Positions 11,729 to 34,425 of a DNA stretch of 64,000 nucleotides are shown piece by piece; the first letter of the stretch is position 1, and the number at the start of each line of letters is the position of its first letter. The translations under genes were made by a program, and so were the position numbers. This DNA comes from Fervidibacillus halotolerans (GTDB taxonomy: Bacteria > Bacillota > Bacilli > Bacillales > Caldibacillaceae), in contig NZ_CP106877.1 of the NCBI RefSeq assembly GCF_026547205.1, positions 1,204,771-1,268,770 on the forward strand, read 5' to 3'. The notes beneath the pieces were generated by a model. That model made no database searches. It had not been told where the DNA came from and saw only the letters and a program-made list of their open reading frames with translations.

Positions 11729-13237
11729 CTATATTTCCATATTAAATAACGCTTCTTGAAAGGTCATTTCCTTTGAGTCTTCGTTTTTTTCCCCATCTTC
11801 GTTTCGATCGTTTGAGTATCCCCCAGATCCGTAGAAGGATTGTTCCTGATCTTCAAACCCATCAAATGCCCCTTCTGTTTGCATATCAATGCGAGTAACA
11901 TTGATATTTTGTTGAACAAAAGCATGGCGTAATGAGGACAGTTGGGTTTCTAATAATTCTTTTGCTCGATCCGTAGAAGAAATAATTTTTGCAATGATTT
12001 CTCCTTGTTTTTGAACGAGCTCGATTTTCAATTCTCCGAGATGTTCTGGATGTAATTTCACCGTAAGGCGCTGGACATTTCCGTTTTTAATGAAATTACC
12101 ACGGGAAAGGATCGATGCAAATTCCTTTTCAAATTGCTTATAGGAAACCGGTTGTTGATCACGATCGATTAATTTTAACGTTTCCGGATGGCCCGTTTGC
12201 TGAAGGGACTGAATTTTATTAACAACTGAAAAGGATCCTTCTGCTTTTTTATCGTTTAGAATCTTTTCCTCTCCTTCGAAAGTTGTCACAGAACTTGCCA
12301 TTCGATTTAAAATTGGTTCATCGGTTTTCCCCTTCCCTGAACGACCTAATTGTTGACTGATTTGGAAAAAATCCGTATTTTTTTCATTTTTCTCATTCAA
12401 AAATTGGCTGTCGTCATTTTGTTGCGGAAGGGGTGGGGATGTATTGAGTTTAATTTGATCTTGTCCACCGGCTAATCCTTGTTTGGAAATCCCATCTTGA
12501 TTTGAGTGATTCGCTACATAATTTTTTATTTGTGCCACTTGAAAGCGATCCTGCCCTAAAGGAAATGGGAAAACGATATTTCTTTCCTTCGTCCCGTCGC
12601 CCCCATTCCATCTAGAGTAAACAGATTGTAAATCCAAATCAAACCCATTCTTTTGGATAAACGTCTCAAGAACACGAAAGGATTCTGGATCCAACTGTTT
12701 CTGTTCCATCGTTTGATAACGAATCATTTGGCCAGCCATTTTCAAAAGAGGAACGACATTGGCTTTAAATTTTTCAGTCGATGGAAAGGAACTCATCAAC
12801 TGATTTAAAACATTGAAAACTCCAATCAATGACCAATCTAAATTCTCTTCATTCATATCTTTGACGAATGATTGCAATTCAGTTAATTTCACCTGATCAT
12901 CTTCATCCATTTCAGAAGAAAGAGCCGAAATGAGGTTTTTTAATACTGTTTTAATATCCTCAATAGAGATCGAGTTGAGATCCTCTTGATCCGTTAGTAA
13001 AGCATCTTCATCGGTGAGAAGGGGCCCTACTGAAGGAAGGAAGTCCTTAACAAAGGATGTAGTTTTCCATTTGGCTTCTTCCAAATCGCTCGTCTCAACT
13101 ACATCTTGCCCGTTTCCACTTGTCAATCTTGTCAATACGTTGTGAAAATCACTGTTTCCTTTTTCATCTTTAATTTGTCCTTGAACAAGTTGTTCTTTAC
13201 CAAAGTTCATGAAGCTTTCAATCGGTCCGATTTGCAT
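11729..13237 (-). CDS. fliK: Flagellar hook-length control protein FliK
   Basis: Secreted ruler that measures hook length and triggers the FlhB specificity switch. The 502-residue product has a long, poorly conserved, Gln/Ser/Asp-rich N-terminal and central region and the conserved C-terminal Flg_hook domain (RLTVKLHPEHLGELKIELV to ITRIDMQTEGAF region, about 390-470). The frame is open from 13255, but AAGGAGGTGAAATC immediately before the ATG at 13237 decides the start. It precedes flgD as in other Bacilli. Confidence 0.93.
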   Translation of the reverse strand: MQIGPIESFMNFGKEQLVQGQIKDEKGNSDFHNVLTRLTSGNGQDVVETSDLEEAKWKTTSFVKDFLPSVGPLLTDEDALLTDQEDLNSISIEDIKTVLKNLISALSSEMDEDDQVKLTELQSFVKDMNEENLDWSLIGVFNVLNQLMSSFPSTEKFKANVVPLLKMAGQMIRYQTMEQKQLDPESFRVLETFIQKNGFDLDLQSVYSRWNGGDGTKERNIVFPFPLGQDRFQVAQIKNYVANHSNQDGISKQGLAGGQDQIKLNTSPPLPQQNDDSQFLNEKNEKNTDFFQISQQLGRSGKGKTDEPILNRMASSVTTFEGEEKILNDKKAEGSFSVVNKIQSLQQTGHPETLKLIDRDQQPVSYKQFEKEFASILSRGNFIKNGNVQRLTVKLHPEHLGELKIELVQKQGEIIAKIISSTDRAKELLETQLSSLRHAFVQQNINVTRIDMQTEGAFDGFEDQEQSFYGSGGYSNDRNEDGEKNEDSKEMTFQEALFNMEI

Positions 13238-13278
13238 GATTTCACCTCCTTTCAAAGGATCGAAATAAGATATTCGGT

Positions 13279-30964: not shown

Positions 30965-31240
30965 TTAGGTTTTCGACGCTTTTTGATCCACGTTATAAAT
31001 GAAGGCGAATACTTCCGCCACCGCCATAAATAACTCCTCCGGGATCTTTTCCTCGATATTAACTTTATCTAAAAGTTCTACTAAAGAAGCATCTTCATAA
31101 ATCGGTATGCGATGCTTTTTTGCTTCTTCGATGATCTTTTCTGCAACGAATCCTTTCCCCTTTGCCTTCACAACCGGAGCCGTGTCCTTTTTTTCATCAT
31201 ACGTAAGAGCGATAGCTTCTTTTTTTTCGTTTTTTTTCAT
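30965..31240 (-). CDS. ylqH: FlhB C-terminal-domain-like protein YlqH
   Basis: 91-residue soluble protein that aligns with the part of FlhB just beyond its NPTH autocleavage site: AIALTYDEKKDTAPVVKAKGKGFVAEKIIEEA here against YAVAIKYDETLADAPIVVAKGVDFVAQKIIYIA in FlhB (excerpts). There is no membrane part and no NPTH, so it corresponds to a pre-cleaved FlhB fragment. In other bacteria such stand-alone proteins can substitute for the FlhB C-terminus, but the role in Bacilli is not settled. It overlaps ylqG by 4 bases. Confidence 0.88.
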   Translation of the reverse strand: MKKNEKKEAIALTYDEKKDTAPVVKAKGKGFVAEKIIEEAKKHRIPIYEDASLVELLDKVNIEEKIPEELFMAVAEVFAFIYNVDQKASKT

Positions 31241-32469
31241 ATTTTCACATCAACCTTTCCACTATGAAAATAAGAAAGGGGAACCTCCCTACGAGATTGA
31301 TTTTGTTCTAATCGTTCAAATTTAATGGTGCTAAGGGAATATCCAATCTTCTCGATATTTTCCTTTAACATTTGAACATATGATTGAATAGATGTTTTAT
31401 TAATTATCTGTTCCGTTTTTACTTGTAAACTAATGATTCGATTTTGCACATTCATATGAATAAATGTTTTCCCAAGTCGAGGCATATTTAAATCAAAAAG
31501 AATGCGGGAGAAATGTTTGTCTAGCTCCCCATCTTTTCCCCTTTTTCCTTCCCATTGAAAAGTGGCGTCGATCATTTTTTCCTTCAATGGTACCGGAATA
31601 GAAAAAGTTAAAATCATATACGGATTTTGGTCTTTATTGGATAATTGTCCCCCGAGGATTCGGTAATATAATGCTTCAAAAGCTTTAAGAACTTGTTTTG
31701 GCAAATGTTCTCCCTTTTGTAATTGTTGACTGAGAAGATCTTTTAATGATGGTGGTACCACGTTCTCCTCAGATGGCGTAGACATCCGAGAATCAATTCC
31801 GATTTCTTTTAAAAGGAAACGTATAGCCCGATATACGTCATGACCTTTCCCCCAATTGGTTTCGACTAGAGGGGTTTCCCCGTGAATTTTCCTTCCAGAA
31901 AGGGTTTGAAGGTGATGTGAAATCTCTTCTTTTTTCTCTACTGAACTGTTAGATAATTCCTTCATCAAACGATCGAACAAAACCGAGAATGGTTCCCTTT
32001 TGATCGTTGCAAAAATCGTTTTAAACATATGGTCGGTAAAAGGGAGCTTTCCCTCAATCATCAAACGAATTGCTTCTAACGTTCTTTTCGCATCCCCTGT
32101 TTCTTTTAACCATTTTTCACCTATTGTAAATTTCGATTGATCAATGGGAACTTTCCAATCCTTTAAAGCAGAAAGGAATAATTTCGCTTCTTTAGAAGTA
32201 GATACGCCAAAAAAATCTCCTTCTTTCTCATGTGAAATCATTAAACGGATTCCTTCGTTTTGTCTTTTTACTCGAAACCAGTAATCCTTTGAAACATCTA
32301 ACGGTGCATCAACCTTCGCAGTAATGAGTTGATTCCCAAATTGTACCTTTGCAAAACCGTTCCCATCAAGGTGAATCACCTTTCCGAAAAAAATTTGTCC
32401 GGAGCGAAAGGAAATTGAACTTTCGTAATACTTTGGAGCAGGTAGATTTCCAAATTGAACATGATCCAT
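31237..32469 (-). CDS. ylqG: FliK-like protein YlqG
   Basis: Uncharacterised protein of 410 residues at the B. subtilis ylqG position. An N-terminal beta-rich module contains FGKVIHLDGNGFAKVQFGNQ; the middle is helical; the C-terminal part (HMNVQNRIISLQVKTEQII to IGYSLSTIKFERL) resembles the FliK hook-length-control C-terminal domain in pattern. No signal peptide. The frame is open to 32508; TTAGGGAGGGTCACC fixes the ATG at 32469. Its coupling with ylqH mirrors the FliK-FlhB partnership, so a type III export link is a reasonable inference. Confidence 0.8.
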   Translation of the reverse strand: MDHVQFGNLPAPKYYESSISFRSGQIFFGKVIHLDGNGFAKVQFGNQLITAKVDAPLDVSKDYWFRVKRQNEGIRLMISHEKEGDFFGVSTSKEAKLFLSALKDWKVPIDQSKFTIGEKWLKETGDAKRTLEAIRLMIEGKLPFTDHMFKTIFATIKREPFSVLFDRLMKELSNSSVEKKEEISHHLQTLSGRKIHGETPLVETNWGKGHDVYRAIRFLLKEIGIDSRMSTPSEENVVPPSLKDLLSQQLQKGEHLPKQVLKAFEALYYRILGGQLSNKDQNPYMILTFSIPVPLKEKMIDATFQWEGKRGKDGELDKHFSRILFDLNMPRLGKTFIHMNVQNRIISLQVKTEQIINKTSIQSYVQMLKENIEKIGYSLSTIKFERLEQNQSRREVPLSYFHSGKVDVKI

Positions 32470-32520
32470 GGTGACCCTCCCTAAATCAGTAATGGATAAA
32501 ACGAGCATACCTTTTTATTT

Positions 32521-32547
32521 ATATCGTCAATCTTTCATTCAGTTTCA
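32521..32547 (-). promoter_or_regulatory. Sigma-D-like promoter before ylqG-ylqH
   Basis: On the minus strand TGAA (32547-32544), 15 bases and GACGATAT (32528-32521) compare with the flagellar sigma-D consensus TAAA-N15-GCCGATAT: 10 of 12 positions agree and the spacing is exact. It lies 52 bases before the ylqG ATG and downstream of the rnhB terminator, in the right place to drive ylqG-ylqH. Confidence 0.5.
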
Positions 32548-32577
32548 CAACTTATTATTTTCATCGTTAAACTAATG

Positions 32578-32609
32578 AAAAAAAATCCCGACGAAAAAAC
32601 GTTGGGATT
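32578..32609 (-). terminator. Terminator downstream of rnhB
   Basis: AATCCCaACG and CGTcGGGATT form a stem with one mismatch around a TTTTTT loop, followed by TTTTTT on the minus strand, about 155 bases after rnhB. Confidence 0.75.
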
Positions 32610-32765
32610 CGAATGAAAAATATGTAGCTTCTTCGATGGAAAAGGTTCGTAAGGTAAATGTGTCCTTTTGTCCAAAGAAATTGAGAAAATCCTATTCGAG
32701 TCGAAGGTAGTGTTACCATCATACGTACACTAACAAGGAAAAATGGGAAAACTTTCGAATGTAAA

Positions 32766-33572
32766 TTAAAAAAGCGAATTTGTATTTGCGGTTGAATCGA
32801 AAAATTGTTTAATTGGAGCAAAAGTTTTCCGATGAATCGGGGAAGGCCCGAACCGATTGATCGCTTCAAGATGCTCCTTTGTTCCATACCCCATATTTCT
32901 TTCAAAACCGTATTCAGGATACGTTTTTCCATATTGGATCATCATCCGGTCCCGACGAACCTTCGCAACGATGGAGGCACTCGCAATGGAAAGGGATCTG
33001 GCATCTCCTTTGACGATGCTCGTTTGAGAAATCGGACAATCGATGTTCATTCCATCGATTAATAAATAATCGGGAAGGGGGCTTAATTGTTTTATAGCCA
33101 TATTCATCGCCTTTTTTGTTGCTTGATAAATATTGATTCGATCGATTTCTTCATGATCGACCATTCCGATACCTACGGAAATAGCTTGACGAAGGATTTG
33201 TTCATAAAGCTGCTCTCTCTTTTTCGGCGACAATTGTTTCGAATCATTGATACTTTGTAAACGAAAGTCATCAGGTAAAATCACTGCCGCTGCAACAACT
33301 GGACCTGCCAACGGACCACGACCTACTTCATCAATACCAGCAATGTAACGGAATCCTTGGAACTTTACCTGTTTTTCAAAAACAAGCATTTCCTCTAAAC
33401 GTTTTTCTTCCTGTAATAAGCGTTCTTTCTTTCTTTTCCACTTTTCGATTAATTTTGCAACACTTTTCCTTTCGTCTTGTTCACATAGTGCGATTAACGG
33501 ATCATCCAAGGAAGTGACCGATTTCAGTTTTTCCTCTATTTGAGCAAGTGTCAAATGAACTCTATTGTTCAT
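32766..33572 (-). CDS. rnhB: Ribonuclease HII
   Basis: Removes ribonucleotides and RNA from RNA-DNA hybrids. The catalytic DE pair is D81-E82 in [20 protein letters not shown]; further acidic residues occur in [11 protein letters not shown] and around [12 protein letters not shown]. The N-terminal 75 residues are the substrate-binding extension of Bacillus RNase HII. The frame is open to 33596, but GGAGGAAATCGGGG directs the ATG at 33572 (268 residues), overlapping rbgA by 11 bases. Confidence 0.96.
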
Positions 33573-34425
33573 CCCCGATTTCCTCCGGTGTTTCAAAGGT
33601 TAATTTACCGAGCTTTTCCGAACGAATATCACGGATGATTACTTCCGCGGTTTTATCATAATCGACGACTCCCCCACTTGCTAGGCAACCTCTTTTCTTT
33701 CCGATATGGACAAATAGATCGACGATTTCATCCGAAAAAGAGGAAAATCCGTATCGTTCTTTTAATGCTTCAGGATATTCTTCCTTTAAATATTGAAGTC
33801 CGTAGACGGCAACATCTTGCAAATTCAAAATCGTATCCTTTATGGCACCGGTTAAAGCCAATTTATAACCGACTTTTTCATCTTCAAATTTCGGCCATAA
33901 TATACCTGGAGTGTCGAGAAGTTCGATGTCCTTTCCAACTTTTACCCATTGTTGCGCCTTCGTGACTCCTGGTACATTTCCCGTTTTTGCGATATTTCGA
34001 TTCGCAAGTCGATTAATCAACGTTGATTTTCCAGAATTTGGAATTCCCACGACGAGTGCACGCATGGCACGGGGATTCATTCCTTTGGCACGCATTCGTT
34101 CCAATTTATCTTGCAATATTTCCTTCGTTTTTATTTTAATTTTATCGATTCCTTCCCCTGTTTGGGAATTGATAGGTATCGCATAAATGCCCTTTTCTGT
34201 AAAATAGGTTAACCATTTATCCGTTTTTTTCAAATCGGCTAAATCCGCTTTATTCATCAGCACGATTCGCGGTTTATTTTGGATGATTTGATCGATCATC
34301 GGATTTCTTGAAGAAAAGGGGACTCTTGCATCGACTAATTCATAAACGATATCGATTAGTTTTAGTTTTTCTGTAACTTCCCTTCTCGCCTTTGCCATAT
34401 GGCCTGGAAACCATTGTATGGACAT
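33562..34425 (-). CDS. rbgA: Ribosome biogenesis GTPase RbgA (YlqF)
   Basis: Late 50S subunit assembly GTPase. The circularly permuted G motifs appear as G4 MNKADL (57-62) first, then G1 GIPNSGKST, then G3 DTPGILWP. The C-terminal ANTAR-like helical domain follows. N-terminus [15 protein letters not shown] is the family hallmark. 287 residues, normal. Coupled with rnhB downstream. Confidence 0.97.

Follow-up and report, generated by a model that had tools for sequence, protein, structure and literature searches.

A possible sigma-D-type promoter upstream of the FliK-like/FlhX-type gene pair ylqG-ylqH in Fervidibacillus halotolerans

Among the substrate switches of type III export, the one controlled by FliK and FlhB has been studied best; it ends construction of the flagellar hook and begins that of the filament. 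In the 64,000-nt stretch of the Fervidibacillus halotolerans genome analysed here (the window), the adjacent, little-studied genes ylqG and ylqH appear to encode proteins resembling parts of this switch, and the question raised by the locus is whether the pair is transcribed by the flagellar sigma factor, sigma-D. The first-pass annotation of this DNA had suggested as much, based on a promoter-like sequence between the rnhB terminator and ylqG and on the resemblance of the YlqG C-terminus to FliK and of YlqH to cleaved FlhB, and had proposed that the two genes act late in flagellar assembly.

The sequence it described, TGAA-N15-GACGATAT, is present exactly so on the minus strand at 32547-32521, where it matches 10 of the 12 consensus positions. 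Motif scanning placed the -35-like element, TGAA (consensus TAAA), at 32544-32547 on the minus strand and, 15 nt further on, the -10-like element, GACGATAT (consensus GCCGATAT), at 32521-32528 on the same strand. The ylqG ATG is at 32469, 51 nt 3' of the box, and is preceded by a ribosome-binding site, AGGGAGGG, with AGGGAGG (32475-32482, minus strand). An upstream ATG at 32508 was considered as the ylqG start and rejected because AGGGAGG stands before 32469. The upstream gene, rnhB (32766-33596, minus strand), has its stop codon 296 nt from the ylqG ATG, and between the two genes is the intrinsic terminator of rnhB (32577-32610, minus strand), a stem-loop at 32610-32583 followed by a T-run. 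This terminator was absent from the list produced by the consensus terminator scan and was found by folding against shuffled sequences, its energy being -12 kcal/mol compared to a shuffle mean of -4.92 (z = -3.63). The box lies within the roughly 105 nt between the terminator and ylqG, where some promoter is expected. Sigma-70-type sites in a 4-kb region were at chance level (11 found, 10.8 expected), and the nearest same-strand site, at 32581-32554 with 9 of 12 matches, coincides in part with the T-run of the rnhB terminator.

The strength of the box was assessed against flagellin promoters. Flagellin was identified in 57 of 61 genomes, and upstream regions were taken from 30 of these; a weight matrix was built from the 26 promoters, including one from the window's own genome, whose best site matched at least 10 of 12 positions, with four regions (G032, G055, G003, G009) falling below that value. 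The -35 of these 26 promoters was TAAA (A in 24, T in two and G in none at its second position) and the -10 was [GT][CTA]CGATA[TA] (G in 14, T in ten and A in two at its first position), with a spacing of 15 in 20 promoters and 14 in six. The ylqG box scored 11.3, compared to 14.0-20.1 for the 26 flagellin sites, which had themselves trained the matrix, and to 18.3, 16.7 and 18.9 for the boxes of flaG, flgM and a chemoreceptor gene in its own genome. Since its score is under all 26 and TGAA occurs in none of them, the box is weak and its -35 unusual. The -10, in contrast, has the CGATA core after 15 nt, within the 14-16 nt allowed, and its GACGATA is legitimate because four of the 26 flagellin promoters share GACGATA[T/A]. 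This candidate box is like the Bacillus sigma-D (sigma-28) motif TAAA-N15-GCCGATAT, as quoted in PMC5200910, in its spacing of 15, its CGATAT core and its position 51 nt before a gene, and unlike Bacillus sigma-D promoters in having TGAA and in its low score.

The genome as a whole provided the machinery for such a promoter and also a considerable background of similar sequences. It encodes sigma-D (250.3 bits, cut-off 189.6) and flagellin, and a pattern with the spacing fixed at 15 and one mismatch allowed identified near-consensus TAAA boxes before hag, flgM, flaG and the chemoreceptor gene (the last three names being read from the open reading frames); the ylqG box is similar to the first three of these. 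A consensus scan of the 64-kb window gave 14 matches of 10/12 on the plus strand, and 14 of 10/12 and one of 11 on the minus strand, some of these being the same site recorded at two or three different spacings. By matrix score the ylqG box was third in the window, behind sites of 14.0 (before dprA) and 12.5. The best of the window's sites, TAAA-N15-GCCGATAG on the minus strand at 28533-28507, matches 11 of 12 positions and is separated from the dprA ATG by 77 nt. Across the genome, 43 sequences fitted TAAA-N15-GCCGATAT when one mismatch was permitted and 32 fitted the reversed pattern, so that the majority of such matches must be due to chance. A less stringent pattern including the ylqG box occurred 95 times against 22 for its control, an excess that CGAT-rich sequence may explain in part. 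In addition, an identical 27-nt near-consensus sequence was observed within open reading frames of 391, 391 and 289 aa (L095, L105 and L222) of the same genome, probably copies of a mobile element. By itself, the ylqG box is no more than a chance match would give.

A serious contender, which we hold at somewhat less than even odds, is that the box is such a chance match, and that ylqG-ylqH are expressed either by transcripts that run through the rnhB terminator or from a sigma-A promoter, as yet unrecognised, within the ~105 nt. The weak -35 and the third rank of the box in its window are in keeping with this explanation, while the strength of the rnhB terminator and the lack of any sigma-A-like site above chance argue against it.

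The products of the two genes are consistent with a role in type III export. YlqG (410 aa; 31237-32469, minus strand) was predicted to have an N-terminal OB-like domain, a helical middle and a probable FliK/PscP-type switch domain (about residues 279-387). Its match to the Pfam family Flg_hook is below the cut-off (E = 2.2e-5, 24.6 bits, cut-off 29.8), and six of 11 relatives match the family at E 0.01. The C-terminal part of its AlphaFold model (mean pLDDT 82.2) matched PscP (5cuk, Z = 6.3, residues 301-387) and FliK (2rrl, Z = 5.9, residues 321-387), although these Z values tie with unrelated OB-fold matches to the N-terminus and alone could reflect a common arrangement. Foldseek found no match to the model at E 0.001; PscP ranked third, with an E-value of 0.037. 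Together, the modelled fold, which is like that of the T3S4 proteins FliK (2rrl) and PscP (5cuk), and the weak Flg_hook match make a switch domain at the C-terminus of YlqG probable, much as the first-pass annotation had proposed. Unlike FliK, YlqG has an OB-like and a helical domain at its N-terminus, and it is not the main FliK, which is encoded elsewhere in the window, at 11729-13255 (59.8 bits to Flg_hook). The modelled OB-like fold, at about residues 19-81, was unexpected for a FliK-type protein. In genus g71, six genomes out of 36 (G182, G402, G403, G404, G412, G422) seem to have a ylqG that is split or has a broken frame, which may represent decay of the gene or faulty assemblies.

YlqH (91 aa; 30965-31240, minus strand), whose gene shares its first 4 nt with the end of ylqG, is of the FlhX type and corresponds to the stretch of FlhB that begins at the NPTH cleavage motif and extends to the C-terminus, so that its claimed likeness to cleaved FlhB was borne out. 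It shares 44% identity over 85 aa with the genome's own FlhB, from FlhB N273, and matches positions 261-335 of PF01312 (76 bits), with homology confined to the part after NPTH cleavage and no membrane domain; its best NCBIfam model is flhB_rel (105.2 bits, below the cut-off of 117.35). The FlhB C-terminal homologue HP1575 (FlhX) of Helicobacter pylori was reportedly termed a 'spare part' by Wand et al. in 2006. Like FlhX, YlqH has a similarity to FlhB that starts no earlier than the cleavage motif, and it is paired with a FliK-like gene; unlike HP1575, it occurs in a different phylum, in the context rnhB-ylqG-ylqH-sucC. Elsewhere, FlhX is counted as an export component and flhX-fliK is mentioned for Nitratiruptor (PMC9321776), and a gene named ylqH is listed as a type III secretion gene in Aliarcobacter (PMC9235176). 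Mutations in ylqG are listed in evolved clones (PMC11523185). Among the papers listed in our search of the openly licensed literature, none dealt with the function of a second FlhB C-terminal copy in Bacilli. We interpret the pair as probably comprising a type III switch-domain protein and the C-terminal part of cleaved FlhB produced as a protein of its own.

The distribution of the pair supported its tracking flagella. When 397 genomes from the order were surveyed, 379 had matches to the FlhB family, 36 of them a single match and 343 at least two, in a survey that scored at most five candidates per genome and in which the second match was not always canonical ylqH (e.g., G029). Of the single-match genomes, 35 had E-values of a full FlhB and one (G059) had the short copy only, which indicated that the pair is dispensable for flagella in those 35. 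Three FlhB-less genomes (G028, G040, G058) have sucC next after rnhB and no trace of ylqG-ylqH, and four genomes have FlhB, yet their sucC directly follows rnhB without the pair (G027, G029, G031, G039). In G059 (L090/L162) the frames of both ylqG and ylqH are open; this genome has no sigma-D match over the cut-off, and flagellin and FlhB were undetected in it.

These exceptions bear on the alternative that YlqG-YlqH is non-flagellar and merely a neighbour of the fla/che operon, which we consider very improbable. Retention of the pair in G059, the presence of flagellin and FlhB without it in G027, G031 and G039, and the seemingly split ylqG frames of g71 would fit that alternative. Against it stand the finding that only one of 379 genomes has a short copy without a full FlhB, and the probable switch-domain fold of YlqG.

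A sigma-D box conserved before ylqG in relatives, the check proposed by the first-pass annotation, was largely absent across the order. This comparison comprised 53 loci, the window and 52 syntenic loci from 60 relatives, with the ylqG starts of three set by hand; seven relatives had no match, and the match in G029 was to a paralogous cassette (see below) and not to ylqG. The distance from the rnhB stop to the ylqG start was at most 80 nt in 49 of the 53 genomes, the exceptions being the window (296 nt), G004 (283 nt), G019 (about 360-420 nt) and L053 (117 nt). Based on this spacing, ylqG-ylqH would in most relatives probably be transcribed as the tail of an rbgA-rnhB operon. Only the window and L079 had a score of at least 10 within 300 nt upstream of ylqG, which is no excess, since among 1060 stretches drawn at random from these loci 3.5% reached 10, predicting 1.9 of 53. 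There was no box upstream of ylqG in G004, the closest relative by YlqG, despite its 283-nt gap, and none scoring at least 10 in the other uncoupled loci (L056, L186, L196, L202, L208, L277, L302). The G004 locus (L002/L041) has a terminator-like hairpin directly 5' of the ylqG ribosome site. The notion that the box is conserved across all relatives was rejected by this comparison, and its general conservation is close to refuted. The same observations favor a chance match, which fits the apparent co-transcription with rnhB in most relatives; a similar spacing was found among 58 named loci, of which 52 were syntenic and 44 of those had a gap of at most 80 nt.

The wider comparison revealed boxes before ylqG in other lineages, which counts against chance. 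Six loci of Neobacillus, Pseudoneobacillus and Bacillus (L157, L163, L165-L168) have ylqG-ylqH away from rbgA, rnhB and sucC, and L277 is a seventh such relocated, stand-alone pair. Three of the seven have an aligned sigma-D-type box 101-145 nt upstream (L163, 10.6; L165, 16.7; L166, 13.7), and it is absent in L157, L167, L168 and L277. In genus g46, all five genomes sampled in the 397-genome set have TAAA-N15/16-xCGATA 33-43 nt before ylqG, two of the five upstream regions being nearly identical. The TAAA overlaps rnhB codons, and the CGATA is inside rnhB in one frame in L079, coincides with the stop codon of rnhB in a different frame in L296 and L301, and is past the stop in L285 and L306; because these contexts differ, the CGATA is not explained by protein conservation.

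The recurrence was also apparent in counts from 141 loci, reduced to 133 after the removal of near-duplicates, using 160 nt before ylqG, a threshold of 10 and a score that weighs spacings of 14-16 equally and is thus more lenient than that for the 53 loci. At least 10 was reached by 13 of 133 ylqG upstream windows, compared to 0/132, 2/133 and 1/133 for other stretches of the same loci and, for control genes, 1/111 for sucC, 0/92 for rbgA and 5/128 for ylqH. Fisher tests against pooled sucC and rbgA (1/203) gave 3.7e-5 for the 13 and 0.0013 for the nine of 133 with a CGATA core, values that are optimistic because the matches cluster in few lineages, because the pooled control omits ylqH, because L183, among the nine, is probably in rnhB, and because L277-L306 had been selected by the resemblance of their YlqG to a relocated one. 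The matches are indeed not independent, as five of the 13 came from one genus and two from one relocated group, and four of the five g46 loci had entered via the set chosen by similarity to relocated YlqG. Three of the 13 (L155, L197, L086) lack the CGATA core, and the L304 match is rnhB coding sequence, as apparently is that of L183. We read the recurrence as a few independent lineages, not nine events.

Not every high-scoring upstream site can be taken as a promoter, and several were rejected. Sites ending in TTTGC[TA]CCGATA are conserved rnhB C-terminal codons (L304 and L305; similar in L042, L153 and L185), GTCGATAT-type sites before ylqH derive probably from the last ylqG codons, and a site in L282 (G254; 15.7 at 164 nt) was left uncounted as it was within an upstream open reading frame; this locus had no rnhB in the 1500 nt upstream. 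A genus search from G353 gave a genus with long YlqG and not the relocated group, and its loci L247-L276 stand outside the box counts.

The g46 genomes combine a short rnhB-ylqG distance with a box. The box could there, and likewise in the window, be a minor promoter, with read-through from rnhB providing basal expression and sigma-D a late boost, an explanation that we regard as possible but rather unlikely.

A further line of evidence came from the paralogous cassette, which was identified in 13 of 61 genomes (L227-L239) and comprises a long YlqG-like gene (720-1888 aa), a YlqH-like gene (95-99 aa), a fliS-like gene and a flagellin gene (up to 781 aa), with a yaaR-like (DUF327) gene after the flagellin in 12 of the 13. 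The YlqG-like gene was linked to YlqG by E-values of 4.6e-10 to 3.5e-5, and two of its products scanned against Flg_hook gave no match. Pfam confirmed FliS in two loci and DUF327 in one, these genes being assigned by sequence elsewhere, and in L229 the YlqH-like frame is present though missing from the list of open reading frames. Sigma-D-type sites of at least 10 in a 110-nt window at the gene start were found for 10 of 13 YlqG-like genes and 12 of 13 fliS genes, compared to none of 12 ylqH2 genes, none of 13 flagellin genes and 10 of 751 random stretches. A stricter spacing score over 250 nt upstream gave 10/13 for the YlqG-like gene, 10/13 for fliS, 0/13 for flagellin and 0/12 for the yaaR-like gene. 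The -35 elements of these sites are often imperfect (TAAG, TATA, TTAA), which makes the TGAA before ylqG less damning. The window's own genome, with two PF01312 matches only, lacks the cassette, and it is not described among the matches listed in our search of the openly licensed literature. The direct placement of a paralogous pair before fliS and flagellin is a further argument against a non-flagellar role, as is the persistence of relocated pairs off rnhB and sucC, three of seven with sigma-D-type boxes.

Taken together, we give a probability of about one in two to the reading that ylqG-ylqH are transcribed, at least partly, from the weak sigma-D-type promoter at 32547-32521. The domains of the two proteins, their co-occurrence with flagella, the position of the box between terminator and gene, the recurrent boxes and the cassette are all on its side, and conservation across the order is the part of the proposal that did not hold. 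Sigma-D control of the pair is thus plausible in this genome and recurrent, but lineage-specific and unproven, and the interpretation of the first-pass annotation is supported in part. The terminator and 296-nt spacer part the pair from rnhB in this genome, and the promoter would most likely supply at least part of its transcription. Both proteins would act at the export gate once export has reached the filament stage. YlqH would stand in for, or replace, the C-terminal domain of FlhB, with YlqG as the switch protein that partners it, and sigma-D may time the supply of the two in some lineages. Promoter activity, timing and protein function are in each case what we infer.

A bolder extension, which we consider improbable, is that the pair forms a module, produced late under sigma-D timing, that resets the gate of flagellar export, and that the cassette is a self-contained second-flagellin switch. 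According to PMC13344023, FliK of Salmonella ejects the cleaved FlhB domain on completion of the hook-basal body, after which the domain is lost. If a protein consisting of a free FlhB domain were made just after this ejection, together with its own FliK-like partner, the two might reload or tune the gate for filament-stage export. The 13 of 61 genomes with the cassette might package a second copy of the module together with a dedicated FliS and flagellin, all driven by sigma-D-type promoters.

The broader significance is that 343 of the 379 sampled genomes bearing the FlhB family have a second copy of the FlhB C-terminus, usually beside a FliK-like gene where examined. If the pair is sigma-D-timed, it acts after the classical switch and would point to an unrecognised late step. 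The flagellin cassette is a natural experiment tying such a pair to one filament protein.
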